DNA from: Flagellimonas oceani
GTDB taxonomy: Bacteria; Bacteroidota; Bacteroidia; Flavobacteriales; Flavobacteriaceae
DNA: 64,000 nucleotides
Direction: 5' to 3'
NCBI RefSeq assembly: GCF_011068285.1
Contig: NZ_CP049616.1
Location: 3,051,001 to 3,115,000, forward strand
The notes under the pieces are model-generated. The model searched no databases and was not told the origin of the DNA. It was given only the letters and a program-made list of their open reading frames with translations. A program made the position numbers and the translations under genes. Below, one piece after another: positions 39,874 to 53,679 of this stretch (the stretch's first letter is position 1; every line of letters starts with the position of its first letter).

Positions 39874-40911
39874 TTATCGGGCCACTCGTCCCGAAGCATC
39901 GCCTTCCATTAACTTTTCAACCTCCGCAATGGTCGCCAAATTCGCATCGCCATAAATGGTATGCTTCAAGCAGGAAGCTGCCACGGCAAAGTTCAATGCT
40001 CTTTGGTCATCCTCGTAAGTATTTAAACCATAAATGAGACCTCCCATAAAGCTATCTCCTCCCCCTACTCTATCCACAATATGTGTGATTTGATATGTTG
40101 GGGATTTGTACATTTTTTCTCCATCGTACATTACACCTGCCCATGTATTGTGCGAGGCGCTGATGGAACCTCGTAGGGTGGTGATTACTTTTTTTGCTCT
40201 TGGAAACTTTTCCATCATTTGTTCGCAAACGGATAGAAACGCTTCCGCAGTAACATCTTTTCCATCTTTATGCACATCCAAACCTTTTGGATGAATTCCA
40301 AAGTGTTTGTGGGCATCTTCCTCATTCCCTAAAATCACATCACAATAGGAAACCAAGGGGGTCATAATTGTCTCGGGTTCCACTCCGTAATTCCACAATT
40401 TTGCCCTGTAATTTAAATCGGTGGAAATGGTAAGTCCCATTTCACTTGCCACCTTTACAGCTTCCAAACATGTATCTGCCGCTCCTTGTGAAATGGCAGG
40501 TGTTATTCCCGTCCAATGAAACCAATGGGCATCCTTAAACACAGATTTCCAATCAATGCTACCTGGTTCAATCTCTGCCATTGCGGAATGTGCCCTATCA
40601 TAGACCACCTTACTTCCACGACTTACCGCACCGGTTTCCAAAAAATAAATGCCCAATCTGTCGCCACCAAAAACAACGTGATTGGTTCCGACATTGCGTT
40701 TTCTCATTTCCAAGAGTGCACACTCCCCAATGTCGTTTTTGGGCAAACGGGTCACGAACTCCACCGGCAGGCCATAATTGGCCAAGGATACTGCAACGTT
40801 GGACTCACCTCCCCCATAGATTACATTAAACTCCGATGCCTGTGAAAACCGGAGGTTATCTTTGGGCGCCAATCGCAGCATAATCTCTCCAAATGTTACT
40901 ACTTTCTTCAT
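39874..40911 (-). CDS. kdgK: 2-keto-3-deoxygluconate kinase
   Basis: PfkB-family kinase that phosphorylates KDG to KDPG, linking UxuA to the aldolase. I chose the ATG at 40911 (MKKVVTFGEIMLRLAP), which matches the family start; an ATG at 40932 would add seven residues. Of its 345 residues the conserved ones include GGGESNVAVSLANYGL at the N-terminus and the C-terminal PfkB signature DRVGGGDSFMGGLIYG with the catalytic Asp. It is monocistronic and convergent with the xylose operon. Confidence 0.92.
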   Translation of the reverse strand: MKKVVTFGEIMLRLAPKDNLRFSQASEFNVIYGGGESNVAVSLANYGLPVEFVTRLPKNDIGECALLEMRKRNVGTNHVVFGGDRLGIYFLETGAVSRGSKVVYDRAHSAMAEIEPGSIDWKSVFKDAHWFHWTGITPAISQGAADTCLEAVKVASEMGLTISTDLNYRAKLWNYGVEPETIMTPLVSYCDVILGNEEDAHKHFGIHPKGLDVHKDGKDVTAEAFLSVCEQMMEKFPRAKKVITTLRGSISASHNTWAGVMYDGEKMYKSPTYQITHIVDRVGGGDSFMGGLIYGLNTYEDDQRALNFAVAASCLKHTIYGDANLATIAEVEKLMEGDASGRVAR

Positions 40912-41512
40912 TTTAGCTGATTTGTTAAACATAGATTACAAGTCCAAGCAAACTACTATATTCTTGAGAAATATGATTGGATTTCCCGAAGATTTTTGGA
41001 ACAATTTGAATACATTTTGAAATTTCAAAATAGTGTTCCTTTCCGTATAAATTTGAATTGAAAACTTTAAAATATGTGGACGTTCAAAAATTAGGTTTAA
41101 ACAGGCTATTTACCCAGGAATTCTTTCTCTGCGGATTATCAGCTGTAGTACAGAGAAATACCATAATATCCATATTTCCTCACTCCAATACAGTCACGCT
41201 TTTGCTAAACAGACAATAACCCTATACCAAGACCATTCTGTGATTCTCTTCAAATATGGAAACATTGGACATCGTATACCGCCCCTCACTGGATAAAATT
41301 CGGCCCCCTCAAACTCAGCAAAAAAGATTGAATTTCAAATCACCACAAAAAAATATCAGATAGCTCAAATTTTTCGTTTTAGAGATTATTTGCATCTGGT
41401 CTTTCCTCTTGATATTATTTAGAAGAATTTCATTAACCGAATTTCAAACCAAACTAATTCAAACAAGGGCTAAAAACAAAAAAACCTTCGAAAAATCAAA
41501 GGTTTTTACTTG
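40912..41512. other. Gene-free AT-rich flank left of the island, with island-end-like sequence
   Basis: No convincing gene is seen. Near its right end are TAACCGAAT (41434-41442), a CAAAC-rich stretch and a hairpin before the tRNA fragment. This order copies that of the island's other end (53486-53603), which suggests a remnant of an earlier insertion at the same tRNA gene. Confidence 0.5.
41480..41507 (-). terminator. Terminator-like hairpin beside the displaced tRNA-Val 3' fragment
   Basis: AAAAACCTT (41480-41488) pairs with AAGGTTTTT (41499-41507) around a 10-base loop. Its position relative to the tRNA fragment equals that of the hairpin downstream of the intact tRNA (53548-53582). It is probably the older tRNA-Val terminator separated by the insertion. 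Confidence 0.5.
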
Positions 41513-41535
41513 GTGGGCGCTGAGGGATTCGAACC
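41513..41535 (-). repeat. attachment-site repeat, displaced 3' fragment of tRNA-Val
   Basis: These 23 bases are identical to 53604-53626, the 3' end of the intact tRNA-Val (T-arm and acceptor 3' strand), in the same orientation. Identity stops at both sides (41512 G versus 53603 A; 41536 T versus 53627 C). The rest of the tRNA is absent here. Confidence 0.9.
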
Positions 41536-41835
41536 TCTTTTGCCAACCCTTATGTTTATTGGGTTTTTCCTTGCTGATACTTTTTTTACTAACCGAATTA
41601 CAGACCGTTTTTAGAAATTCGCCTTCGTATCTAACAAAATTAACCATAAAATATTAAACAAACATATCTGCCAAACCAAACACTAAAATGCGTCGGGCTG
41701 ACTGAATCATCGACGAAATCTTATATCACATTGATAAATCATTGTTTTATCACTAGACTCTTGAGAAAATTCAGCCCCTAAAAAACATTGTATTCAATAC
41801 CTAATCACTAAATTGTTTTAGACTCATTCAAGCTT
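41536..41835. other. Gene-free left end of the island with an arm-like site
   Basis: No gene is visible between the attachment repeat and the HlyD-like gene. TAACCGAAT at 41590-41598, inside the longer TTTACTAACCGAATT, is shared with the right end (53486-53494) and is a candidate integrase arm-binding site. Confidence 0.5.
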
Positions 41836-42579
41836 TTACAAATCTTTCTTAAAAAGCTCTAAATCATCTAGACTGGATGAAAAAAAGTATTTTATAAGCT
41901 TGGGATTATCTATTTCAATTTCGGCTTTATATTTTTTTCCTAAAAATTTTGAGATACTATTTGAAGAGAGATTATTAGCTAGAATTTTAAATTCATAAGC
42001 CCCTGTTTTTGACGAAGAAATATTACCAATGTTTCCAAGAAATACTACATGTTTTAGGTCACTAACATAAATTTTCAACTGAACATGTTGCCCTTCTTTA
42101 ATCGCATCAAATGGTGGTTCCGTATTTACTGTGAAATACAAATTGTAATCAGTAGGTTTTGTTAGTAGTATTTTAAAAAGTAGATCACCCTTATTGACAT
42201 AATTTCCTTCTTTAAGATATGGATCTACAAGAAGACTACCCGATTGTGGTGAATTTAATTCAAACACCGTATTTTGTGAACCACTAATAAACCCTAATCG
42301 CTCTCCATCTTCAACTAATAAACCATTTTTGCCAGTCCATTTTATAAATGTGCCCGAAATCGGAGCATGAACCTCCTTTGCCACTGCATTTGGCACCAAT
42401 TCAAAATTTCCTTCCAAAACTATAGGATAATGTATTACTGAAGATAATATCAATATTCCCAGTATTAAAAAAAGAATAATTGTATTACCCCAACGTATAA
42501 AAGCATTTGGAACCCTTCCCAAAATTTCTTGGACACTTTCGCTTCTTATATTAAACTTAGTTTCATGTACTTTTTCCAT
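41836..42579 (-). CDS. Short HlyD-like periplasmic adaptor (membrane fusion protein)
   Basis: A 247-residue inner-membrane-anchored adaptor expected to pair with the exporter encoded 10 bases upstream. It has one N-terminal membrane helix (about 31-50), a split biotinyl/lipoyl-like domain (APISGTFIKWTGKNGLLVEDGERLG and SPQSGSLLVD to VNKGDLLFKI) and a beta-barrel region (IKEGQHVQLKI). The usual coiled-coil hairpin of HlyD proteins, which makes them about 400 residues long, is missing. It could be a trimmed adaptor working without a TolC partner or with a different outer-membrane channel. The family call rests on domain pattern and neighbourhood. Confidence 0.78.
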   Translation of the reverse strand: MEKVHETKFNIRSESVQEILGRVPNAFIRWGNTIILFLILGILILSSVIHYPIVLEGNFELVPNAVAKEVHAPISGTFIKWTGKNGLLVEDGERLGFISGSQNTVFELNSPQSGSLLVDPYLKEGNYVNKGDLLFKILLTKPTDYNLYFTVNTEPPFDAIKEGQHVQLKIYVSDLKHVVFLGNIGNISSSKTGAYEFKILANNLSSNSISKFLGKKYKAEIEIDNPKLIKYFFSSSLDDLELFKKDL

Positions 42580-42589
42580 AGCCCATAAT

Positions 42590-44788
42590 TCAGTTTCCCA
42601 ATTCCAATTGATTTTTTACCAAGTGATAATAATCCCCCTTTAATTGAGTAAGAGAAGTATGATTTCCATATTCAGCTATTCTTCCTGAATCCAGCACTAC
42701 AATATTATCCGCTTTCTTCACAGTACTCAACCTATGCGCGATAATAATACACGTCTTGCCTTTAAAGAAGGTTTGTAGATTATCCATTATTACACGTTCA
42801 TTGTTGGCATCCAAAGCCGAAGTGGCTTCATCTAAAAATAGAAAATGTGGGTCCTTATAAACCGCTCTGGCAATTAACAAACGTTGTTTCTGACCTGTAC
42901 TCAGCCCCTTGCCTTCTGGCCCTATCCTTGTATTTACACCCAATGGCAATTCATCTAGAAAAGATTGGATATTGGCAATTTTTATAGCTTTAGCTAATGA
43001 CCTTTCATCAATCACATCTGAACCTACTGCAATATTTCTGGCAATAGTATCATTAAAGATATATCCTTCCTGCATAACTACACCACAACTGGATCTCCAT
43101 GAACTTTGGGCGAAATCCGAGAGTTTATTTTTACCGATATAAATGCTGCCCTCATTAGGCTCATAGAACCTTAAAAGCATTTTCATCAAAGTTGTTTTTC
43201 CACTTCCGCTTATCCCCACAATTGCAGTTACTTGATTGGCCGGAATCATCAAATCAAGGTTCTTTATCACATTGGATAATCCGCCAGGATATTTGAATGT
43301 TACATTGCTTAAATTAAAACCTTGGTCAACTGGAACATTCACCAAGGTATTGGCATCTATGGTTTCCTCGTTATCCATATTATGGATTTCCGCAAGCCTT
43401 TCCAATGAAATTTTAGCATCTTGGATCTCCCTCAAAAAAGTAATCAGTTGCATTACGGGGGCATTCAATTGTCCCACAATGAAAGAAATCGCAACCATCA
43501 TCCCTAGGGTAATATCATTTTGGATGACCAGTTTTGCAGACAATACCGTGATAAGAATATTCTTTAATTCATTAATGAAAGATGAACCTACACTTTGGGT
43601 CTGTTCTAATGTCAAGCTCTTCATCTCAACTTTGAACAATCGGGCTTGAACAAATTCCCAATTCCACCGCATCCTTCTTTCTGCATTGTGAAGCTTGATT
43701 TCTTGCATTCCGTTTATGAGCTCGATCACTTTGCTTTGTTCCTGGCTTATTTCAGAAAACCTTTTGTAGTCCAGCTCCCGTCTCTTTTTTAAAAAGAAAA
43801 GAACCCAAATAAAATAGAGTACACTCCCGATAAAGAAAATCGTAAATATCTGAATACTATAATAGGCTAAAATGATACCAAAAATCAAAAAATTTACCAT
43901 TGAAAAGAGAACACTTAAAGAAGATACCGTAAGTATTTTTTCAACTCGCTGGTGGTCATTGATGCGTTGCAACAGGTCACCGGTCATTTTCGCATCAAAA
44001 AAAGAAATGGGGAGGTTCATCAATTTGACAAAAAAATCCGAGATCAACGATATGTTGATCCGGGTACTCAAATGAAGCATTATAAAACTTCGAATTACCT
44101 CTAAAGCTGTACGACCAAAAAACAGGAAAAGTTGGGCAATAAGGATTAGATAAATAAAGTTCAAATCTTCATTTTTAATCCCGACATCCACAATACTTTG
44201 AGTTAAAAAAGGAACGAACAATTGCAGTAGACTACTGGCTAAAAGCCCAATCGCCAATTGAACAACAAAGCGTTTATATTTAAAAAGGTATTTGAAAATG
44301 AAGTTAAAATCATAAGCATTCTTTTTTGGCTTCCCATCATCCCTGGAGTAAAACTTGGGTGTTGGTTCCAATAGTAGGGCAATCCCTTCTTCGGTAGTTA
44401 CATCAGCATTGTTACCAATCCAAAATTTGATGAAATCTTTGGTGTTATACCTAAGTAATCCATGCCCGGGATCCGCCACATAAATCTTTTCTTTTTTGAT
44501 TTTATAGAGTACTACATAATGCTCCTTGTTCCAGTGCAGAATACAAGGCAATGGAACCTCCAATAATTTATTAAAACTTAGTTGTACCCCTATACTGTGA
44601 AATCCCAACAATTCGGATGCCTTAGAAAGATTCAAAAGATCACTGCCTTCCCTATTGGTCTCCGAATAAGATCTTAAATCTTGAATATCGAAGGTTTTAC
44701 CGTAGTATTTGCCTATCATTTTAAGACATGTGGGACCGCAATCTTTTAGGTCTACTTGCTTGTAAAAAGGAAAATTTGAGGTGAACAT
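42590..44788 (-). CDS. Peptidase-containing ABC exporter (C39 bacteriocin-type)
   Basis: A 732-residue exporter that cleaves a double-glycine leader and pumps the mature peptide out. The N-terminal C39 peptidase (1-140) is intact: Cys17 (LKDCGPTCL), His90 (NKEHYVVL) and Asp106 (VADPGHG). A six-helix ABC membrane domain follows (about 170-450), then the ATPase with Walker A GISGSGKTT, signature LSTGQKQRL and Walker B FLFLDEATSALD. The clear substrate candidate is the 61-aa precursor encoded just upstream. The two genes are separated by a perfect hairpin (44807-44834). Confidence 0.95.
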   Translation of the reverse strand: MFTSNFPFYKQVDLKDCGPTCLKMIGKYYGKTFDIQDLRSYSETNREGSDLLNLSKASELLGFHSIGVQLSFNKLLEVPLPCILHWNKEHYVVLYKIKKEKIYVADPGHGLLRYNTKDFIKFWIGNNADVTTEEGIALLLEPTPKFYSRDDGKPKKNAYDFNFIFKYLFKYKRFVVQLAIGLLASSLLQLFVPFLTQSIVDVGIKNEDLNFIYLILIAQLFLFFGRTALEVIRSFIMLHLSTRINISLISDFFVKLMNLPISFFDAKMTGDLLQRINDHQRVEKILTVSSLSVLFSMVNFLIFGIILAYYSIQIFTIFFIGSVLYFIWVLFFLKKRRELDYKRFSEISQEQSKVIELINGMQEIKLHNAERRMRWNWEFVQARLFKVEMKSLTLEQTQSVGSSFINELKNILITVLSAKLVIQNDITLGMMVAISFIVGQLNAPVMQLITFLREIQDAKISLERLAEIHNMDNEETIDANTLVNVPVDQGFNLSNVTFKYPGGLSNVIKNLDLMIPANQVTAIVGISGSGKTTLMKMLLRFYEPNEGSIYIGKNKLSDFAQSSWRSSCGVVMQEGYIFNDTIARNIAVGSDVIDERSLAKAIKIANIQSFLDELPLGVNTRIGPEGKGLSTGQKQRLLIARAVYKDPHFLFLDEATSALDANNERVIMDNLQTFFKGKTCIIIAHRLSTVKKADNIVVLDSGRIAEYGNHTSLTQLKGDYYHLVKNQLELGN

Positions 44789-44806
44789 TAACTGTTTAAT
44801 AATTAG

Positions 44807-44834
44807 TTAGCCAAAGGAAAATTCCTTTGGCTAA
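44807..44834 (-). promoter_or_regulatory. Perfect hairpin between precursor and exporter genes
   Basis: TTAGCCAAAGGAA (44807-44819) and TTCCTTTGGCTAA (44822-44834) form a 13-bp perfect stem with a 2-base spacer (a 4-base loop or larger in practice). It follows the precursor stop by 25 bases. On the minus strand no long T run follows, so it is more likely an mRNA-stabilising or partial-termination element than a full terminator. Confidence 0.6.
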
Positions 44835-44859
44835 TTGAATTCTAAGTTTGGTGAATTGA

Positions 44860-45045
44860 TTAGACAACTATACATCCTTGTGCTGTACAAATACCTTTGT
44901 AGGTGAATCCATTACAATAGTAAAGACATTTTGATCCAATACCACTACATGAGCCATCACAAGCTGACGATGCTCCGCCTTGTACTCCTTTTTGCTGAGC
45001 TTTACCTAAAATCCTTACTCCTTTTAAATTTGCTAAATTTTTCAT
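44860..45045 (-). CDS. Double-glycine-leader precursor peptide with six-cysteine core
   Basis: A 61-residue peptide precursor. I start it at the ATG complementing 45043-45045, because MKNLANLKGVRILGKAQQ is a typical Bacteroidota GG-type leader; an ATG 12 bases upstream would add MIFK. The leader ends VQGG, giving a predicted 37-residue product that begins ASSACDG and ends CIVV. The product has six cysteines at positions 5, 9, 16, 20, 29 and 34 (spacing C-x3-C-x6-C-x3-C-x8-C-x4-C), enough for three disulfides. It is glycine- and serine-rich with a hydrophobic tail. It lies between the VKOR-thioredoxin and exporter genes. I do not recognise the core; a bacteriocin or a signalling peptide are both possible. 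Confidence 0.82.
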   Translation of the reverse strand: MKNLANLKGVRILGKAQQKGVQGGASSACDGSCSGIGSKCLYYCNGFTYKGICTAQGCIVV

Positions 45046-45160
45046 TTTAAAAATCATTTAGAATTAATAACACCCTGGACATTTAAGGACATCCAAGATT
45101 TATGTCCATCCTTCGCGAAAAGATATTTTGTTGGGCTTCTAATGCAATGCCCAAATAAAT

Positions 45161-46768
45161 TCAGTGGAACGAAACATAATTGCCTTCAGTTGGCAATAAG
45201 GCATGTTCTACCAGATCGTCAATAAAAAACAAGAGATCTTGCCGTTGATATTCTTTAGGAAATTCCTTTCCATTAATAAGCAGAACTGGGGTGAAATGCA
45301 ATTTGTTTTTATGGTTCCATTTTTGTTGCTCCTTTAACACCTGACCAAAAGTTTCCAATTGGACAGGGTGCCCCCATTTTGCCAACCATTTCTCCATATT
45401 GGTATTTTCGGCATAGGCCTCAGCCAAGGCATGCTTCAGAACATTTCCGTCATTTTCATGGTACAGTTCCAACAATCTGGCACATACCTTGGTGCCTGAA
45501 TGTTCAAGATTTTCCGCATTGACATTAAATCGGATAGTTAGTTGAAAGCTATTCGGATATTGGTTAAGGAGATTTTCCATATCCGCATGGGTAGATTTAC
45601 AATAAAAACATAACGGGCTTGTCAACAATAACAATTCAAGTGGAGCATTTTGGTCACCTAAAACAATTTCTTTGTCCCCATAATTTTTGATGGATGTCTC
45701 AATTGTTTTTGAAGCTAGCAACAAGGAATGGAACAGTTTAAAGTTGCGTTTGAACTTGAAATGGTCAATTTTTACTTTTTTCAACGATTCATTTTCAATT
45801 AACAACGATTGAAGTGGAATCAAAATCGATGTTGCCATGAGTAACCCCAAAACCAAGGTTGCCATTTCCCCCATTGAAAAACCATAAATCCCATTAATGA
45901 CAATAGCTAAGTTTTGAGCCCACAAAACAGCGATAATACCCAAACAAAGGGGACACCATTGCTTTACAATTTTATATTGATAAAAAATCGAAAATAAGGT
46001 GATTGGCAATGAAAGTATGGTGACAAAAATCAATGCTCCACTTTCAAGTCCCAATAAGGAATTTAAAAACCACGTAATCGTGATTCCCGAAAAATAGATC
46101 AAGCTGATAACACTCAATTTGATGTTACCGAATAACTTTGCCCCTTTAGATTGCAAAACGGCGTCACAATTGGTAGCCTTGTTAACGGCGCAAATTCTAT
46201 CCAATGCCCTGGACTGGAATCCCAATTCATGATAGGAAATGAGAATACTAATAAATAAACCCGCAACCCCCAGCAAATAATGGACGATTTCAAAGGTTGA
46301 TTGATAAGAATACAAGAGGTAGACACTTAAAATTGATAGGACCAACAGCGACAATGTATAATTGGGCATCTTTCTTATAGATTGTTTTTTGGGTTCAATA
46401 TGGCCCTCAGTTTCAATACCCAGTACAATGCCGTTCCAATGATCCAAAAATTCTTCATTGGATAGCTGTTCCTTTTTTCCATCCTCAAATAGCAATTTGA
46501 ATCCCTCCCTATTTTTATCGACCAGCATGTATTGCCCATGTTTAGAGACCGCCATAAAACTTTTGGGTAGCTCGGGTAATATTCCGATTTCCAAGGGAAG
46601 CTCCAATGCTATGTTTTCCAACCCAAAATGATCAAGAACCCCGGTAATTGAATGCAGGCTTGGATAAGTGGGGTGGCTTAATAATTGAAATTCAAGTTCT
46701 TTCGGGTCAACTTTATAACCATTGTGCTTAATAAAGGTTAGAACCAGCACATAAACAGGGTTTTTCAT
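45161..46768 (-). CDS. VKOR-thioredoxin fusion with degenerate C39-like N-terminal domain
   Basis: A membrane oxidoreductase of 535 residues from the ATG at 46768 (MKNPVYVLVLTFIKHNG). Residues 1-130 resemble a C39 peptidase fold (SHPTYPSLHSITGVLDHFGLEN) but lack the catalytic Cys. Next is a vitamin-K-epoxide-reductase domain with a loop pair C-x7-C (CAVNKATNC) and the quinone-side WCPLC, in several membrane helices. A periplasmic thioredoxin/DsbA-like domain with CFYC and the cis-Pro stretch HFTPVLLING ends the protein. Such fusions make disulfides by passing electrons to quinone. The precursor gene 115 bases downstream encodes six cysteines, so oxidative folding of that peptide is the likely job. 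Confidence 0.88.
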   Translation of the reverse strand: MKNPVYVLVLTFIKHNGYKVDPKELEFQLLSHPTYPSLHSITGVLDHFGLENIALELPLEIGILPELPKSFMAVSKHGQYMLVDKNREGFKLLFEDGKKEQLSNEEFLDHWNGIVLGIETEGHIEPKKQSIRKMPNYTLSLLVLSILSVYLLYSYQSTFEIVHYLLGVAGLFISILISYHELGFQSRALDRICAVNKATNCDAVLQSKGAKLFGNIKLSVISLIYFSGITITWFLNSLLGLESGALIFVTILSLPITLFSIFYQYKIVKQWCPLCLGIIAVLWAQNLAIVINGIYGFSMGEMATLVLGLLMATSILIPLQSLLIENESLKKVKIDHFKFKRNFKLFHSLLLASKTIETSIKNYGDKEIVLGDQNAPLELLLLTSPLCFYCKSTHADMENLLNQYPNSFQLTIRFNVNAENLEHSGTKVCARLLELYHENDGNVLKHALAEAYAENTNMEKWLAKWGHPVQLETFGQVLKEQQKWNHKNKLHFTPVLLINGKEFPKEYQRQDLLFFIDDLVEHALLPTEGNYVSFH

Positions 46769-47097
46769 AAAAAATATTTGATTATTAATCAGGGGAACCA
46801 CATCAACCCTATCATCGGTTGATTGCCCTTTTAATTCTTTACACCTATTTAAATGACCACGTATAGAAGGTAAAGTCTATTAATAAAGATTTAAACCATT
46901 TAAAGACTAGTTTTTCTCAATCCACTTGCCTTCCTCAATTTGCCCCCATACAAAGAATCATTTATCACCCTTCCCAATAGAGTAGGATTTATACTATACC
47001 AATTAAAGAAGTATTTATTTTTTATGTAAGCTTTAATTGATGAACATGTGAATTCATCATCTAAAACAAGGAAATGGATGTACGAATTAATTTGAAA
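46769..47097. other. Gene-free region upstream of the peptide operon
   Basis: No small gene or exact TAnnTTTG box is seen on either strand. The operon promoter should be here, possibly activated by the LytTR-type regulator. A short inverted pair AGTCT/AGACT flanks 46876-46907, but its significance is uncertain. Confidence 0.35.
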
Positions 47098-48972
47098 TTA
47101 TAAATGTTTATAGGGTACTGCAAAAACAATTTCGGCTCCGCTTTGATTTTTTTGGTTATTAATCTCAAATAAAGCAGGTTTCCCATTCTTTTTATTGTAA
47201 ATCGCCAAACGCTCTTTTAATATGGAAAGAGACAAAGATGTATGCTCTCCAGGGATAGTTTGGGTGCCATCGAACCCTTGACCATTATCCTTTACTGTAC
47301 AAAGGAGTGATTTTGTATCAATTTTAACAATTTCCACTATAATACTTCCGCGTTCAAAAGCACCTGAAATACCATGAATTATAGCGTTTTCCACAAGAGG
47401 TTGAATCAACATAGGTGGAATTAGGATTTCTTCTTGATCCAGCTTGGGATCAATTTTAATTTTGAAATCAAAATTTTGGGAAAAATTGGATTGAAGTTCC
47501 AAAAAACTTTGAAGCGCTTGAATTTCATCACCCAAAGCTACTAAATCGGTTCTTGAGTTTTCTAAGGTCAACCTTAATAGTTTAGCGAGTCTAAGAATAT
47601 ACAACTTGGCTTTTTCTTTATCGGTATCCATCAAAAGAACACCAGAATTTAATGCATTGGACAAAAAATGAGGGTTCATTTGTGATCGCAACAACCTTTG
47701 CTCCAATGTTATTTCTTTCATTTTCTGGCCTGTTGTCCTTTGCCGCATTATTAATCCTCCCAGCCCCAAAAACAAACACCCTAATGCAATTGAGCTCCAT
47801 GTAATTGTACGCTGTTGTTCCAGTATTTTATTCGTTTGTTCTGATTCTTTTTTAAGTTGGTTAATTTCCTCCTCCCGTTTTTTGGTCTCAAAATCCAATT
47901 GTAATTTTTCCAACTCTTGCCGCATTTGTAATTTGTTAAAGTCAACTTCAAATTCAACTTGGTCCTTCAATGTTCTATTTGCATTATAAAGCCGACCCTC
48001 CTTTTCAAAGGCCATAATCAAGTTTTCATATGCCATCGATATCAAATCCCGCTCATTCCTATTCTTGACAGAATACTTCATTGTATCAATCATATTTTGC
48101 AAATGAACAATAGCAATCTCTGCTTTGTTTTCATGGATATCAATATAGCTTTGATATAAATTCTGATAGTTGTTCGTTTTATTATGGGACGAATTTTGGT
48201 CATAAACAAAATCCTTATATGCAGCGACCGACTTTCTGTAGTACCACAACGCCGAATCAATATTTGAAGCCCTAAACCATTCTGCCGCATTACCATAAAC
48301 GGCAGATAAGTTATTTTTATATTTTGACCCAAGGCTTCTTTTAATAGCTTTATGATAATAATAAAGTGATGAATCCCGATATTTCAAATAGTTCTTGGAG
48401 TACAAAAGGCCAAGACGATTAAATGCGGAAATAGCAGCTTGATCAGATATTAGATAATTGGAATCCTTAATACATCGTTGATAGTAGAAAAGAGACAGTT
48501 CATTATTACCAAGAGACAGGTGATTGGCAGCCAGAGAACTCAGTATATAAGGTTTAATTTCCAATTTGAATTTGTCAGCAAGGTCAAAGGCCCTTAGAAG
48601 ATAGGTTGTCGATTTTGAATATAGCTCTTCTAATCTTTCAATATAGCCCAATGAATAATAGGCATATGTCAAAGACATTTCCTCATTAGGGTGTTTGATT
48701 TTCATTTTATCAAAATATTCAATTGCTTTCTTAGAATAAAAAATAGCCGAATCGTGTTCTTTCGTTCTTAATTTATGATACCCTAAATAGGAATAATACT
48801 TTGTCCAACCTAAAAGATTATTGTTGGTTTCTAAGATATTTTTAAAGAGTTTGAGATTTTCATTATCTAAAGGTTGAAATTTAAAGGTGTCAATCTGAAT
48901 TTGATTGTATTGGTCAAGCTGGGCTTGAACCAATGTTGTCCACATAATCATGATAATTGCTATTCTTTTCAT
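47098..48972 (-). CDS. LytS/YehU-type sensor histidine kinase with periplasmic TPR sensor
   Basis: A 624-residue kinase from the ATG at 48972, which begins a signal peptide (MKRIAIIMIMWTTLVQAQ). An upstream start at 49113 would overlap the divergent regulator and is unlikely. Residues 20-370 are TPR-like repeats outside the membrane. A coiled coil (QELEKLQLDFETKKREEEIN), one membrane helix (ITWSSIALGCLFLGLGGLIM) and a His_kinase domain with His435 (QMNPHFLSNAL) follow. The ATPase has PPMLIQPLVENAIIHG and KDNGQGF. It is divergent from the LytTR regulator with 45 bases between them. TPR sensors can bind peptides, so sensing the island's own product is possible but unproven. Confidence 0.93.
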   Translation of the reverse strand: MKRIAIIMIMWTTLVQAQLDQYNQIQIDTFKFQPLDNENLKLFKNILETNNNLLGWTKYYSYLGYHKLRTKEHDSAIFYSKKAIEYFDKMKIKHPNEEMSLTYAYYSLGYIERLEELYSKSTTYLLRAFDLADKFKLEIKPYILSSLAANHLSLGNNELSLFYYQRCIKDSNYLISDQAAISAFNRLGLLYSKNYLKYRDSSLYYYHKAIKRSLGSKYKNNLSAVYGNAAEWFRASNIDSALWYYRKSVAAYKDFVYDQNSSHNKTNNYQNLYQSYIDIHENKAEIAIVHLQNMIDTMKYSVKNRNERDLISMAYENLIMAFEKEGRLYNANRTLKDQVEFEVDFNKLQMRQELEKLQLDFETKKREEEINQLKKESEQTNKILEQQRTITWSSIALGCLFLGLGGLIMRQRTTGQKMKEITLEQRLLRSQMNPHFLSNALNSGVLLMDTDKEKAKLYILRLAKLLRLTLENSRTDLVALGDEIQALQSFLELQSNFSQNFDFKIKIDPKLDQEEILIPPMLIQPLVENAIIHGISGAFERGSIIVEIVKIDTKSLLCTVKDNGQGFDGTQTIPGEHTSLSLSILKERLAIYNKKNGKPALFEINNQKNQSGAEIVFAVPYKHL

Positions 48973-49017
48973 CAGCAAATTATTAGGGCTTAAATTGTGT
49001 TCTGAAATAACCTTAGA

Positions 49018-49767
49018 ATGATAAACAAGATAACAACTTTTATAATTGAAGATGATGAGGAAACAAGAAAATACATTAAAAAAATTGTAAGTGATTACCT
49101 TCCTCAATTCCAAATCATTGGTGAAAGCAGTACCGTTAAAGAGTCTATTTTAAAATTAAGTAAGTCGAAAGCAGACTTATTGTTAATGGATATTATGCTG
49201 AGGGATGGGGAATCATTTGAGATATTACAACACTTCCCTGAAAATACATTCGATGTACTTTTTATTACAGGGCATAGTCAATTTATAACACGTGCTTTTG
49301 AATACTTTGCTTTTAACTATTTACTAAAACCATTCAAAGAATTGGAATTAGTCGACATTTTGGGCCATTTTTTAAACAAACGTCAAAAAATATGGAATAT
49401 GCAACGACTAACAATCATGAATGAGTTCTTGAATAAAAATGGCTCAAGATTCTTAATACACACTGGGAATGAGTATGTAGCAGTCGACCTAATAGATATC
49501 ACCCATTGTAAATCGGAAGGTAATTACACCAGGTTTAACCTGCAAAACGGTCAAAATATGTTGGCTTCCAACCCTTTAAAATATTATGAACAAGTCTTAA
49601 GTTATAAAGGCTTTTTTAGAATTACCCGTTTTGACCTTATCAATAGTGTTCATATAGCTTCTATTTATAAGAAAGAAGCCATTATTCTTAACAATGGTTT
49701 AAAAATTAGATTAAGTCAGAATAATAGAGAAATATTGGAAATATTGTTGAGAAGTTTAAATCAATGA
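49018..49767 (+). CDS. LytTR-family response regulator
   Basis: A 249-residue regulator with a receiver domain (acidic pocket Glu11-Asp12-Asp13, phospho-acceptor Asp58 in LLLMDIML, Thr84, Lys104 in LLKPF). The C-terminal LytTR DNA-binding domain (about 145-249) contains YVAVDLIDITHCKSEGNYTRF and FFRITRFDLINSVHI. LytTR regulators commonly control bacteriocin and competence genes. The divergent kinase at 48972 is its probable partner and the peptide operon its probable target. Confidence 0.95.
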   Translation: MINKITTFIIEDDEETRKYIKKIVSDYLPQFQIIGESSTVKESILKLSKSKADLLLMDIMLRDGESFEILQHFPENTFDVLFITGHSQFITRAFEYFAFNYLLKPFKELELVDILGHFLNKRQKIWNMQRLTIMNEFLNKNGSRFLIHTGNEYVAVDLIDITHCKSEGNYTRFNLQNGQNMLASNPLKYYEQVLSYKGFFRITRFDLINSVHIASIYKKEAIILNNGLKIRLSQNNREILEILLRSLNQ

Positions 49768-50043
49768 ATCAAACTCTCATGCACAAATCCTAATTATATA
49801 CCTAACTAAAAATTTATGAAATGCTTCTGCAGCCTGGCACTATTTCAATAAAGGAACAGGGTGGACAAATGACGTATGAAGTTTAAAAAGTTTAACCCAG
49901 TATAGATACTCTAATGTTTAGAATAGGTTTTTCACATAACTAAAATATTTATCAAGGTTTTAAGTGGTCTAGAAGTGGGTGTAAAATGTTATTGAACTGA
50001 AATCGTCCCAAATACTTACCCTAACTTTTGCGTATGGATCCTA

Positions 50044-50091
50044 TCGGGTTTTTGTAGTGTTCCGGTAGATAAGCGTGAAGCAAAAACCCGA
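50044..50091. repeat. 11-bp inverted repeat beside the mobilisation remnant
   Basis: TCGGGTTTTTG (50044-50054) and CAAAAACCCGA (50081-50091) are perfect inverted copies separated by 26 bases. They lie just downstream of the BfmA/BtgA-like remnant. They could be a relic of a transfer origin or an old recombination site. Confidence 0.5.
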
Positions 50092-50102
50092 AAGGGCGCA
50101 AC

Positions 50103-50213
50103 CTACTTTTTGGAATAGCTCCGAAAACGTATGGCCGCTTCTTTCTTTACAGTGATGTTGGAATAACCACCGGCTCCTTTCCTTGTTTTACCATTTGTAG
50201 ATTGCTTTTCCAT
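50103..50213 (-). pseudogene. Truncated BfmA/BtgA-type mobilisation protein
   Basis: A 36-residue reading frame starting MEKQSTNGKTRKGAGGYSNI and ending FRSYSKK. It resembles the N-terminus (ribbon-helix-helix-like start) of BfmA/BtgA mobilisation accessory proteins of Bacteroidota mobilisable elements, as I remember them. The rest of the protein is absent, and I find no continuation in other frames downstream. No relaxase gene is nearby. This suggests that the island was once mobilisable. The family call is from memory and needs a search. Confidence 0.55.
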
Positions 50214-50783
50214 AGGGCGATTTTATTTTTTAGTGAAATTGCGTCAACTTTTTCGTCAAAAATTTCCTGTGTTTACAGGGCTTCCCAAAGGGTTTACTGT
50301 AGATATCGGAAAAGTCTACTGTAGCCCAGGATTTTGAACAGTATTTCAAAATATTATCAATTCACTGGTTTTCAACTTGTTGAAGACCCGAAAACAACCG
50401 TGATGGCGCAAATTGCGCATCACCCTCTTGCTATTCCCTTCGTCCCGCAAGCGGGACCGAATAAATACAGCATGATTGAAAATCAGCTGCCCTATAAATG
50501 TTCTTTGGTTTGTACGGACTTTAGGAAAGTCAAATCAAATAATCAATGCCGTACTGAAGTGTTCAAAAACACTTTTTAAATACACCAATTTTATCCATTT
50601 CTTAATTATTCAATATCATGAGTAATTTTTCTAAAATGAGATTGGTTCGCTATGGCAAAAAGTCTTTACACATAAATTCAGGCTAATTATAAATCATGTT
50701 CATTAAGCCAAATCAATTTTATCAAACATTTTGATTTAATGTAACAAAAGCCTTTCCCTATACTCTTTATTCCTAAATGGCAT

Positions 50784-52112
50784 ATGCGTAAATATTGTTA
50801 CCTACTTGTCCTCTTCGTTGTTATTGGCTGTAAAAATGACAAACCTGAACTGAGCATTATCTCTTCAGATATAAATAACTTCTGGAATGCATATGATAAA
50901 ATAATGTCGACAGAAGATACCATACAACAGGGCACTTATTTACAAGAGCTGTTCATAAAAAAGAGTTCAATAGGACAAAAAGCAATGATTGATGCCCGAG
51001 GATATTCAAATGACGAATATTTGGATGCAATCAGAAACTACCCGGAGTTTTGGTCATCGATTAGGGAAAACACAAATAAAGTTAATAATTACAGTAAGGA
51101 ACTTGAAGAAGGGATTGAGGATTTAAGAGCTGTATACCCGGATCTAAAAGATTCCAAGATATACTTTACAATTGGTGCCCTGAGAAGTGGTGGCACAACC
51201 ATGGATAGCCTGGTCTTGATAGGTTCTGAAATTGCATTGGCCGATAAAACTACCCCAAGTTTTGAACTGCCTGAGCAGCTCTCCCATTTGGTCCCTTATT
51301 TTGAGAACAATCCCAAAGAGAATATTATTTTCTTGAACATACACGAATATGTCCATACCCAGCAAAAAACCACCATCGGAAAAACACTACTTGCCCAGAC
51401 ACTTATAGAAGGGGTTGCCGAATTCGCTGGCACAAGAGCATTGGAAACAGATTCCCCAAATCCTCAAATAAAATTTGGAAAAGAACACAACGAAAGAATC
51501 AAGACCGAATTCTCCAAAGAAATGTTTTCTCCTTATTTGCAGAATTGGATATGGAACAGTCCAAACAATAAGTTTGGCATGCGTGATCTCGCCTATTATG
51601 TTGGCTACGCCATATGTGAAAAATATTACCATCAGGAACCAAACAAAGAACTGGCCATAAAAAAAATGATGGAATTGGATTTTGATAATGAAATGGAGTT
51701 GATTGAATTTGTCAACTACTCAAAGTATTTTGGACAACCTTTAGAAAATTATAAGAAAAGATTCGAAGAAAGCCGCCCCAAAGTGACCAAAGTAGAACCT
51801 TTTAATGAAAGACAGGAAGATATAAATCCGGACGTTGAAAGCCTCACCATCCATTTTTCAGATGCTATGGATACAAGATTCCGCAATTTTGAAATTGGGC
51901 CACTAGGAAAAGAACACCTGATTAGGTTCAAAGAATTTCACGGATTTTCTGAGGACAAAACGGCACTTCATTTCAATATTGAACCTTTGGAGGCAGCTAA
52001 AACCTATCAGATCATTGTAGGCTCAGGGTTTAGGAATAGCCAAGGTATACCCCTCAAACCATATCTAATTGAGTTTACCACTATCAAACCATCTACATCT
52101 GATTCAAATTAA
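50784..52112 (+). CDS. Gluzincin-like zinc protease lipoprotein (DUF2268-like) with Ig-like C-terminal domain
   Basis: A 442-residue lipoprotein (signal 1-16, lipobox VIGC). The central domain carries HEYVH (187-191) and, after about 20 residues, EGVAEF (Glu213). This is the zinc-binding and catalytic pattern of gluzincins of the DUF2268 kind. The last 110 or so residues (VTKVEPFNERQEDINPDVESL onward) resemble a Big_5/SbsA-like Ig domain. It is the last gene of the island before the integrase, with which it converges (4-base overlap). The role is unknown: defence against external peptides, processing of the island's peptide or unrelated cargo are all possible. Confidence 0.7.
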   Translation: MRKYCYLLVLFVVIGCKNDKPELSIISSDINNFWNAYDKIMSTEDTIQQGTYLQELFIKKSSIGQKAMIDARGYSNDEYLDAIRNYPEFWSSIRENTNKVNNYSKELEEGIEDLRAVYPDLKDSKIYFTIGALRSGGTTMDSLVLIGSEIALADKTTPSFELPEQLSHLVPYFENNPKENIIFLNIHEYVHTQQKTTIGKTLLAQTLIEGVAEFAGTRALETDSPNPQIKFGKEHNERIKTEFSKEMFSPYLQNWIWNSPNNKFGMRDLAYYVGYAICEKYYHQEPNKELAIKKMMELDFDNEMELIEFVNYSKYFGQPLENYKKRFEESRPKVTKVEPFNERQEDINPDVESLTIHFSDAMDTRFRNFEIGPLGKEHLIRFKEFHGFSEDKTALHFNIEPLEAAKTYQIIVGSGFRNSQGIPLKPYLIEFTTIKPSTSDSN

Positions 52113-53374
52113 TTTTCAATTACCTTCTTATTATCATCAGTTGATTCCGATAACTTAGTATCCAGGATGGATTCCAATCCACTCATATCTTCACTGATTT
52201 TGTTATCCAATACTCTTGCATAAATTTGGGTCGTGGCCAACTCTGAATGTCCCAATATCTTAGAAACAGTCTCTATGGGAATCCCATTACTTAATGTAAT
52301 GGTTGTGGCGAACGTGTGTCTCGCCATATGAAAGGTTATATGTTTATTGATTTGGCATGAATCGGCGATCTCCTTCAGATAGCTATTTAATTTTTGATTG
52401 GAAATCTTAGGAAATAATTTATCTGTACGTCTTTTTGGATGATAGTGATATCTCTTGACAATCGACAATGCTGGTCCCATTAAAGGCAGCCTAAAACTGT
52501 TCTTGGTCTTTTGTCTTTTTGTACTTATCCAATGCTTTCCATCGATACCCAATACGAGATTGTCCTCATTTAAGTTCATTATATCACAATAGGCAATGCC
52601 CGTGTAGCAACTAAAAACAAATAAGTCTTTTACAATTCGTAACCGTTCAATCTTGGTTTGGAAATCCTGAATTTTTCGTAATTCTTCCAAGGTCAAAAAA
52701 TCCCTTTCCTTTCTTTCCATCCTAATCTTAAATTTTTGAAAGGGGTATTTTTCTATCCATTCATTGTTCACAGCCATTCTGACCATCTTTCTCAAACGCT
52801 GGATATGTTTCATCGCCCCGTTGTTAGAAAGTCTACCGTGATGGTGGATAGGGTGTAGTTTTCGCAAGTAGGTCTCGAAACCCACAACAAACTGATGGTT
52901 GAGCTGTGACAATCTGTAATCATCACATTTATAGTGCTTCTTTAGATAGCCCAATAAATACTTCTGGGTGGTTTTATAATGGCTCAGGGTCGCTTTACCC
53001 AGATTATGTGCGCCATGGAGGTTATGGTATTCAAATAGGGACGTTAATGTCATTTGGTTCTCATCCTCCCCGAAATACTTCGCCTTGACCATTTGAGGTG
53101 TAATGTAGGTCGTTTTGGATCGTAATTCACGATAACATTGGAAAAGCTCGGTTTCAACCTCCATTAAATAGGCGTTGATTTCCTGCACCTCCGTTGTGCG
53201 CCCCAGAACCCTCGATCCCTTTCGGTCCCAACTTTCTGCAGGAATGGTGTATTTGAGGCTCATGTTAACTCGTTGTGAATCAACGGTGATACGGGCATAA
53301 ATCTTAGCGGTTCCGTCATTCCGCCGGGCAGTGCTTATCCAAAAACTGATTGAAAATGTAGACCGAGTTCTCAT
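52109..53374 (-). CDS. Tyrosine recombinase/integrase of the island
   Basis: A 421-residue site-specific recombinase from the ATG at 53374 (MRTRSTFSISFWIST); a GTG at 53404 would add ten residues. It has an arm-binding N-terminal domain, a SAM-like core-binding domain (about 105-200) and a catalytic domain. The latter shows the Lys in KRQKTKNSFRLPL, HMARH, the His in LGHSELATTQ and the Tyr in IYARV. The position of the first catalytic Arg reads TGIAYCDI, with Ala instead of Arg, as in several Bacteroidota integrases such as IntDOT that lack this residue. It lies 230 bases from the tRNA-Val attachment site, as expected for an island integrase. Confidence 0.95.
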   Translation of the reverse strand: MRTRSTFSISFWISTARRNDGTAKIYARITVDSQRVNMSLKYTIPAESWDRKGSRVLGRTTEVQEINAYLMEVETELFQCYRELRSKTTYITPQMVKAKYFGEDENQMTLTSLFEYHNLHGAHNLGKATLSHYKTTQKYLLGYLKKHYKCDDYRLSQLNHQFVVGFETYLRKLHPIHHHGRLSNNGAMKHIQRLRKMVRMAVNNEWIEKYPFQKFKIRMERKERDFLTLEELRKIQDFQTKIERLRIVKDLFVFSCYTGIAYCDIMNLNEDNLVLGIDGKHWISTKRQKTKNSFRLPLMGPALSIVKRYHYHPKRRTDKLFPKISNQKLNSYLKEIADSCQINKHITFHMARHTFATTITLSNGIPIETVSKILGHSELATTQIYARVLDNKISEDMSGLESILDTKLSESTDDNKKVIEN

Positions 53375-53453
53375 AGGTTTTGTGTTAAATTGAACGAAAA
53401 TCACCTACGAAAGTCAAACACTAAGTTGCTGTAATATAGTAATTTACAGGCTT

Positions 53454-53494
53454 ATTCGGTTAACACTTTTCAGAAAAAATTTTACTAACCGAAT
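53454..53494. repeat. Inverted arm-like sites at the right end of the island
   Basis: ATTCGGTTA (53454-53462) and TAACCGAAT (53486-53494) are perfect 9-bp inverted copies with 23 bases between. The same 9-mer occurs at 41590-41598 inside the left end and at 41434-41442 just outside it. They are candidate integrase arm-binding sites. Confidence 0.55.
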
Positions 53495-53547
53495 TGCAAA
53501 CCAAAACATATCAAATCAAACCAATTTAAATAAAGGCCTAAAAAGTC

Positions 53548-53582
53548 AAAACCTTGCAAATCAATAAGATATGCAAGGTTTT
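53548..53582 (-). terminator. Terminator hairpin downstream of tRNA-Val
   Basis: AAAACCTTGCA (53548-53558) pairs with TGCAAGGTTTT (53572-53582). On the minus strand it follows the tRNA 3' end by about 22 bases and has flanking A/T runs. Since it lies inside the island, it is a terminator supplied by the island. Confidence 0.7.
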
Positions 53583-53603
53583 GTTTTTGTTTAAACTCTA
53601 AAA

Positions 53604-53626
53604 GTGGGCGCTGAGGGATTCGAACC
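53604..53626 (-). repeat. attachment-site repeat in the intact tRNA-Val
   Basis: 23-bp copy identical to 41513-41535. It includes one base past the tRNA discriminator and the T-arm/acceptor 3' portion of tRNA-Val, so the integration restored a functional tRNA. Confidence 0.9.
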
Positions 53627-53679
53627 CCCGACCCCCTCGGTGTAAACGAGGTGCTCTGAACCAACTGAGCTAAGCGCCC
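53605..53679 (-). tRNA. tRNA-Val (UAC)
   Basis: A 75-nt tRNA with a 7-bp acceptor stem (GGGCGCT with AGCGCCC), D-stem GCTC/GAGC, anticodon stem CCTCG/CGAGG and loop TTTACAC, giving anticodon UAC for valine. The T-loop is TTCGAAT and the discriminator base is A. CCA is not encoded. It is the integration target of the island. Confidence 0.97.

Follow-up and report, generated by a model that had tools for sequence, protein, structure and literature searches.

Where does a small peptide with six cysteines acquire its disulfide bonds, and what could bring it to the enzyme that forms them? This question is raised by an operon of Flagellimonas oceani that lies within the 64,000-nucleotide stretch of DNA analysed here (contig NZ_CP049616.1, positions 3,051,001 to 3,115,000; the window, in what follows), in which genes for a VKOR-thioredoxin fusion protein, a precursor peptide with a double-glycine leader, a C39 ATP-binding cassette (ABC) exporter and an HlyD-like adaptor follow one another beside a divergent LytS/LytTR pair. 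Disulfide bonds are normally formed outside the cytoplasm. We consider it probable, if far from assured, that this operon encodes a dedicated assembly line, in which the leader would guide disulfide formation inside the cytoplasm, prior to cleavage and export of a bacteriocin-like peptide.

The genes named in the original prediction were all found open and with the domains attributed to them. To these our analysis added a C39-like N-terminal domain and an extra transmembrane (TM) helix of the VKOR protein, as well as attachment (att) repeats, an integrase and a tRNA. Specifically, residues 1-122 of the VKOR fusion have a predicted C39 fold and are homologous to the exporter's own C39 domain. 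In a family alignment made from 101 proteins of 500-560 amino acids (aa), with L057, L090, L098, L105, L149 and L168 left out, the catalytic Cys-His-Asp triad was intact in none of the 96 N-terminal C39-like domains. The C39 domain of the window's exporter carries Q11, C17, H90 and D106, and these residues are present in 68, 70, 73 and 70, respectively, of 73 exporters (window included). As for the oxidising domains, the VKOR cysteines C193, C201, C272 and C275 are conserved without exception in the 96 family members, and the thioredoxin-domain cysteines of the fusion are 387/390. Since a conserved motif of the C39-like domain falls on the leader-contact helix, this domain is, as far as its sequence allows us to judge, probably a leader dock. 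In two loci the C39-like and VKOR parts are split into two adjacent open reading frames (ORFs), the break being near the domain boundary in L103 and near TM1 in L106.

The homology to the exporter's C39 domain would also suit another role, namely that of a tether holding the oxidoreductase to the exporter without binding any leader, and in PCAT1 the C39 domain does interact with the transporter core (PMC6959990). We regard such a tether as quite improbable, given that 29 loci combine a precursor and this type of VKOR with no exporter match in the available stretch, and given the position of the conserved motif.

The orientation of the enzyme in the membrane provided a second line of evidence. 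Six TM helices (136-154, 158-181, 218-239, 244-268, 273-292 and 299-~322) are predicted between the C39-like domain and the thioredoxin; therefore, the C39-like domain, the thioredoxin and both VKOR sites would lie on one side of the membrane. This is one helix beyond the expectation for VKOR-DsbA proteins, in which a charged N-terminal flank precedes the first helix, and the extra helix is clearly hydrophobic in 91 of the 96 family members. On the catalytic side, the family has on average 3.42 lysines plus arginines before TM0, 4.38 in the TM1-2 loop, 2.14 in the TM3-4 loop and 6.34 after TM5, compared with 0.27 and 0.53 in the loops of the opposite side. In ordinary VKORs, of which 25 out of 26 loci entered the count (L220 was not recovered), the catalytic-side values were 1.6, 0.36 and 1.43 (the last from 14 proteins), and those of the opposite side 3.2, 3.0 and 2.84. 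Accordingly, all 96 family members have a positive side score, and 23 of 25 ordinary VKORs a negative, that is canonical, one: the canonical arrangement, with positive loops opposite the catalytic loop, is reversed in every member of the family. The predicted topology points to both oxidising sites being placed in the cytoplasm. Orientation and leader evidence agree, because the cytoplasm is the only place where leaders are expected, and it is towards this compartment that the enzyme with the leader-reading fold would be turned. A second VKOR in the genome (L208, G000:C1:4276238-4276612) lacks the catalytic-loop cysteines in the alignment and shows an ordinary charge pattern.

Canonical bacterial VKOR-DsbA proteins act outside the cytoplasm, and the domains of the fusion superpose on periplasmic ScsC and on the Synechococcus VKOR. 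Together with the canonical charge pattern of 23 of the 25 comparators, this would fit the same genes working in the ordinary orientation, with periplasmic oxidation following export and the C39-like domain being periplasmic as well, or its link to the bundle falling short of a full TM helix. We deem this unlikely, as the charge bias is the opposite in the whole family, the extra helix is hydrophobic in nearly all members, and a fold that binds leaders would serve little purpose in a compartment where none are expected.

Leader-guided oxidation in the cytoplasm presupposes a suitable substrate. The likely start of the window's precursor is the ATG at 45045, giving a 24-aa double-glycine leader and a 37-aa, six-cysteine core; with a start at 45057 the leader would be 28 aa long. 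As originally described, the core spacing is C-x3-C-x6-C-x3-C-x8-C-x4-C (3-6-3-8-4) and the leader terminates in VQGG. For the core, a monoisotopic mass of 3728.61 Da was computed in the reduced form and of 3722.56 Da with three disulfides. Compared with the double-glycine consensus that we used (L at -12, E or Q at -8, a hydrophobic residue or Q at -7, a hydrophobic residue at -4, and GG), the window leader matches with L-12, Q-8, Q-7, V-4, G-2 and G-1; leaders of Gram-positive substrates have L at -7 in their consensus (PMC6959990). Searches against Pfam and NCBIfam returned zero matches for the precursor at E <= 1. A precursor and operon-order search had been put forward with the original prediction. 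When about 5.8 billion proteins were searched by shared words, an approach with limited reach, the precursor's own record was the only one returned. The operon order did recur, and Flagellimonas pelagia (locus L013 = L107) has a linked precursor in the same operon position, 56% identical and with a cysteine spacing of 4-6-3-8-4. Because of this homologue, we take the precursor to be a real gene and not a chance ORF. In addition, ten further chosen precursors align with that of the window in a hand-picked alignment of 12 rows, showing a common leader and cores of related cysteine layout. The window core was modelled, with moderate confidence, as short strands with zero helix (predicted local distance difference test, pLDDT, 80-85 for residues 31-60; predicted template modelling score, pTM, 0.40). 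Alpha-hairpinins consist of two helices joined by C-x3-C pairs, and the likeness to them that had been suggested for this core is not supported by the model. The YGNGVxC motif of class IIa bacteriocins, as named in PMC6671954, is absent from the 37-aa core.

Across the family we collected 136 distinct precursors (window included), of which 74 have six cysteines and 122 an even number (binomial p about 1e-22; 78 of 88 are even when one core per locus is counted). This parity was not built in, because the search pattern asked only for two or more cysteines; even counts are as full disulfide pairing predicts and support, at the level of sequence, the complete pairing originally envisaged. Within operons (74 pairs), leaders are 69.6% and cores 23.4% identical, the corresponding values for 1500 random pairs being 39.8% and 19.6%; leader identity is somewhat inflated because the pattern partly fixed positions -12, -8 and -4. 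At position -7, which the pattern did not fix, Q, L or M occurs in 133 of 136 leaders, and E or Q occupies -8 in 121 of 136. A cystine-knot-like spacing was found in 12 cores from 10 loci, against 3.1 expected. A small group of precursors carries a CCHPxW...VC motif (L015 10242-10424, L019 9950-10156, L050 10791-11036 and, with ...IC, L018 9855-10055). The CCHPxW-type spacing is faintly like that of alpha-conotoxins, probably by convergence.

To evaluate the linkage between the two genes, 125 loci were reduced to 121 with a VKOR ORF and to 117 after merging at 95% identity, the window not being counted; in 12 of the 117 the VKOR ORF is shorter than 450 aa (broken or cut). With a fixed leader pattern, a double-glycine, cysteine-rich precursor was detected on the same strand as the VKOR gene and within 1.5 kb in 87 of 117 loci, or 80 of 102 when only loci with enough sequence on either side are considered. 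Within 1 kb of the VKOR gene there are 122 precursor-pattern ORFs on the same strand versus 1 on the opposite strand, and the same-strand density drops from 0.54 per kb to 0.02-0.05 per kb at 3-9 kb. Around the ordinary VKOR genes of the phylum the pattern was found in 0 of 26 loci (88 kb in total; 24 from other classes). Moreover, the order VKOR, precursor, C39 ABC, HlyD recurs across loci, which upholds the proposal that these genes act on one kind of product. A mere chance neighbourhood of a housekeeping VKOR and an unrelated small ORF, to which the precursor's lack of relatives in the protein database might lend some colour, is hardly credible in view of the linkage (87 of 117 loci versus 0 of 26 controls) and of the homologous linked precursor in F. 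pelagia.

Proteins related to the VKOR fusion were found in Flavobacteriaceae, Saprospiraceae, Chitinophagaceae, Cyclobacteriaceae, Sphingobacterium, Spirosoma, Bacteroides and others (80 of 99 confirmed loci). Their presence is patchy in the genus (19 of 71 genomes at E <= 1e-10), and class-wide they were detected in at least 18 of 295 genomes at E <= 1e-20, at most four candidates per genome being scored. Two groups of loci have a particular composition. L056, L058, L059 and L061 show a DUF6734-cluster gene nearby, no exporter match in the available stretch, and small precursors with a CxxVNPxAxCC end; L060 resembles them but has an exporter at the contig end. In L048, L049, L051 and L055, the C39-like VKOR gene is divergent from that of a ~535-aa DUF6734-cluster protein, and an exporter and HlyD are present without a pattern precursor; the product of these loci may differ from that of the others.

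Within 6 kb, the neighbours of the 117 loci fall into clusters of C39-ABC (71), HlyD (62), thioredoxin-type (33), LytTR-type (26) and LytS-type (23) genes, the cluster names resting on Pfam matches of a few members each. LytTR pairs often serve peptide signalling, and the LytTR- and LytS-type neighbours would be in keeping with a product that serves not as an antimicrobial but as a signal, sensed by the LytS/LytTR pair. We hold this to be improbable: in most loci the available stretch contains no such pair within 6 kb, the window's kinase contains tetratricopeptide repeats (TPRs) and a domain scan found no peptide-receptor domain in it, and the cores are almost fully variable while the leaders are not, with more than one precursor in 29 of 88 loci, which suits arms over a single receptor. 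Antimicrobial action appears the likeliest use of the peptide, because of the analogy with bacteroidetocins, the hypervariability of the cores and the carriage on an island.

Several observations weigh against leader-guided oxidation in the cytoplasm. The place of the catalytic cysteine in the C39-like domain is extrapolated, the HHalign match beginning at residue 11; a cysteine occurs near residue 4 in 5 of 96 domains and within about the first 30 residues in 20 of 96, and PCAT1 I59 aligns with T42 of the domain, which is not hydrophobic. Concerning orientation, two comparators, the short VKORs L211 and L224 from elsewhere in the phylum, have scores resembling those of the family. The positive-inside rule, moreover, offers guidance of a statistical kind, and the ends of the helices derive from one predicted model and were transferred to the other proteins by alignment. 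Most comparators are only distantly related, 24 of the 26 ordinary VKOR loci belonging to other classes of the phylum, so that taxonomic distance may contribute to the linkage contrast as well as to the charge contrast. In 30 of 117 loci the pattern found no precursor, about ten of these having near-miss leaders by eye. Furthermore, disulfides formed in the reducing cytoplasm must persist until export.

The loci without an exporter belong to the same list. Precursors unlinked from exporter and VKOR genes had been named as the finding that would speak against the system, and such cases were encountered in part: in 29 of the 87 loci with a precursor the available stretch, in some of them ending at a contig edge, shows no match to an exporter; L018, L047, L056, L058, L059 and L061 have precursor and VKOR but no exporter match, with at least 8 kb of sequence on both sides; and in G020 two precursors adjoin a 72-aa VKOR remnant, the exporter being absent within ~10 kb, while the same genome has the full locus L052. 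Among the eight larger proteins of the island, no outer-membrane channel was found (smaller ORFs and the rest of the genome were not searched) and no immunity protein was recognised (smaller ORFs were not scanned). The 247-aa adaptor, in addition, lacks the long middle portion that is present in the usual form of ~430 aa. For these reasons, 'complete' and 'self-contained', as the system had been called, are too strong. The same eight proteins include no lanthionine or radical-SAM enzyme, in agreement with the original prediction, and no tailoring enzyme besides the oxidoreductase.

All together, we propose the following sequence of events. The precursor would be synthesised with its double-glycine leader, which would dock in the cytoplasm on the C39-like domain, devoid of its triad, at the N-terminus of the VKOR fusion. 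Two further domains of this protein, thioredoxin and VKOR, turned towards the cytoplasm by an extra TM helix that inverts the VKOR bundle, would then oxidise the six core cysteines to three disulfides, with electrons passing to quinone. The leader would next be handed to the active C39 domain of the exporter and cut after VQGG, and the folded core would be exported with the help of the short HlyD. Expression would be controlled by the LytS/LytTR pair, and the whole unit is carried on a tRNA-Val-integrated element. Export of a folded 37-mer is plausible by analogy, because the membrane part of PCAT1 is a large conduit without a specific cargo-binding region, though its cargo is unstructured in the cavity (PMC6959990). 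In a broader reading, to which we give an even chance, the peptides would form a class whose disulfides are themselves introduced under the direction of the leader, in the reducing cytoplasm. A quinone-linked membrane oxidoreductase, inverted towards the cytosol, would grip the leader with its retired C39 domain, act on nearly every cysteine-rich core and deliver the product to the exporter, where the active C39 domain would recognise the same leader; the system would extend through the Bacteroidota, with hypervariable cores, some of them of cystine-knot-like spacing.

The nearest known system is that of the bacteroidetocins (class IIf, PMC6671954), which likewise encode together, in Bacteroidota, a small cysteine peptide with a double-glycine leader, a thiol oxidoreductase and a C39 ABC exporter. 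In that system deletion of the oxidoreductase gene attenuates activity, disulfides are suggested, and there is no obvious immunity gene (PMC6671954); the peptides act on BamA (PMC6671954, PMC8546649). Bacteroidetocin leaders measure 15-16 aa and end in GG, against 24 aa here (28 aa from 45057), and the cores of bacteroidetocins A and B have 42 aa and four cysteines, against 37 aa and six here; mature peptides range from 42 to 48 aa, with four similarly placed cysteines in A, B and their nearest kin and at least two in distant ones (PMC6671954). Bacteroidetocin loci have a separate five-TM protein and a separate oxidoreductase (PMC6671954), whereas here a single C39-like/VKOR/thioredoxin fusion is accompanied by HlyD and LytS/LytTR. 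No separate five-TM protein was found among the eight larger island proteins, and the fused TM part of the VKOR protein may have taken over its task. A double-glycine-leader, cysteine-rich peptide with oxidoreductase and C39 exporter is therefore already known in the phylum; the mechanism would be new, if topology and docking hold.

PCAT1, LahT and ComA share the C39 fold with the exporter and the VKOR fusion, but the fused copy is without the Cys-His-Asp triad and sits on an oxidoreductase instead of a transporter. In HlyB, the C39-like domain belongs to the ABC protein and serves substrates from which no leader is cleaved; here such a domain is on a VKOR enzyme beside double-glycine precursors. 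With the Synechococcus VKOR, a VKOR-DsbA fusion, our protein has in common the four VKOR cysteines and a thioredoxin-like partner; it differs in that a C39-like domain is present at the N-terminus, one TM helix is added and the charge pattern is reversed. Sublancin and glycocin clusters are bacteriocin operons with their own thiol-disulfide oxidoreductase and C39 exporter, but their peptides are glycosylated, and no such additional tailoring enzyme was found here. VKOR-type oxidation in the cytoplasm would be shared with engineered inverted VKOR and DsbB and with the archaeal VKOR of Aeropyrum pernix, reportedly inverted as well (by the title of Hibender et al. 2017); we know of no leader-docking domain or dedicated peptide substrate in any of them. 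The engineered enzymes are those of CyDisCo (PMC5471842). Among the open-access matches listed, covered by titles, abstract starts and term counts, no paper describes a C39-VKOR fusion, although subscription papers could hold one; no open-access paper was found that combines 'peptidase C39' with 'vitamin K epoxide reductase', and a search of PMC10352776 and PMC10734526 for key terms found neither 'vitamin K' nor 'disulfide' in the main text.

The operon sits inside a 12.1-kb element (41513-53626) with an integrase and direct-repeat att sites at a tRNA 3' end, as in tRNA-targeted integrative elements; the att 21-mer has only two occurrences in the 4.61-Mb genome. The tRNA-Val side was compared in four related genomes. 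G101 has the tRNA region and no integrase match, in G018 the integrase is followed by sulfatase-type genes, up to a far end that was not located, and G010 matches the integrase-side DNA only in part. In G100, both the left end and the integrase have matching DNA, and between the two lie a trypsin-type protease and a relaxase-like gene (DUF5712; PF03432 below cut-off), the latter being absent from the window's island. In this genus, tRNA-Val thus seems to be a hot spot for islands (window 41513-53626; L189, L190, L192). The coordinates of all features are reported in Table 1. For the kinase gene, the ATG at 48972 is a more likely start than the TTG at 49113. The GldB-type lipoprotein contains an HEYVH motif, and its gene is possibly a cargo or protection gene. 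To the left of the island, a kinase gene (39874-40932) has an 84% relative at L013 16713-17753, ~5 kb from the F. pelagia operon.

Table 1. Features of the operon and of the surrounding island, in window coordinates.
Feature	Position	Strand	Remarks
Left att copy	41513..41535	+	exact 23-bp repeat of tRNA-Val 3' end
Short HlyD-like adaptor	41836..42579	-	247 aa; PF13437 at 22.2 bits, exactly the cut-off
C39-ABC exporter	42590..44788	-	732 aa; PF03412, PF00664, PF00005
12-bp hairpin, terminator/attenuator-like	44807..44834	-	pattern match only; between precursor and exporter genes
Precursor peptide	44860..45057	-	65 aa; 61 aa from second ATG at 45045
C39-like/VKOR/thioredoxin fusion	45161..46768	-	535 aa; PF07884 57 bits (cut-off 27.5), PF13462 27.5 bits
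TPR-containing LytS-type histidine kinase	47098..48972	-	listed ORF extends to 49113 with TTG start
LytTR response regulator	49018..49767	+	divergent from LytS-type kinase gene
Two stretches 89-91% identical to DNA flanking G100 mobilisation-type genes	50007..50505		genes themselves absent in the window
GldB-type lipoprotein gene	50784..52112	+	PF25594 34.4 bits (cut-off 27); island cargo
Tyrosine integrase	52109..53404	-	ATG at 53374; PF00589, PF13102, PF17293; beside tRNA
tRNA-Val(tac), integration target	53604..53679	-	right att copy 53604-53626 at 3' end

In conclusion, if the proposed assembly line is true, these bacteria would produce multi-disulfide peptides within the cell by means of a natural machine that is guided by its substrate, through a tag that tolerates very different cores. 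Bacteroides are said to lack general disulfide machinery (PMC6671954), and such a system would help explain how Bacteroidota make disulfide peptides without it. The dead C39 domain fused to VKOR is, in addition, a search handle for a large unread stock of cysteine-rich peptides, and the place and order of bacteriocin oxidation become directly testable.

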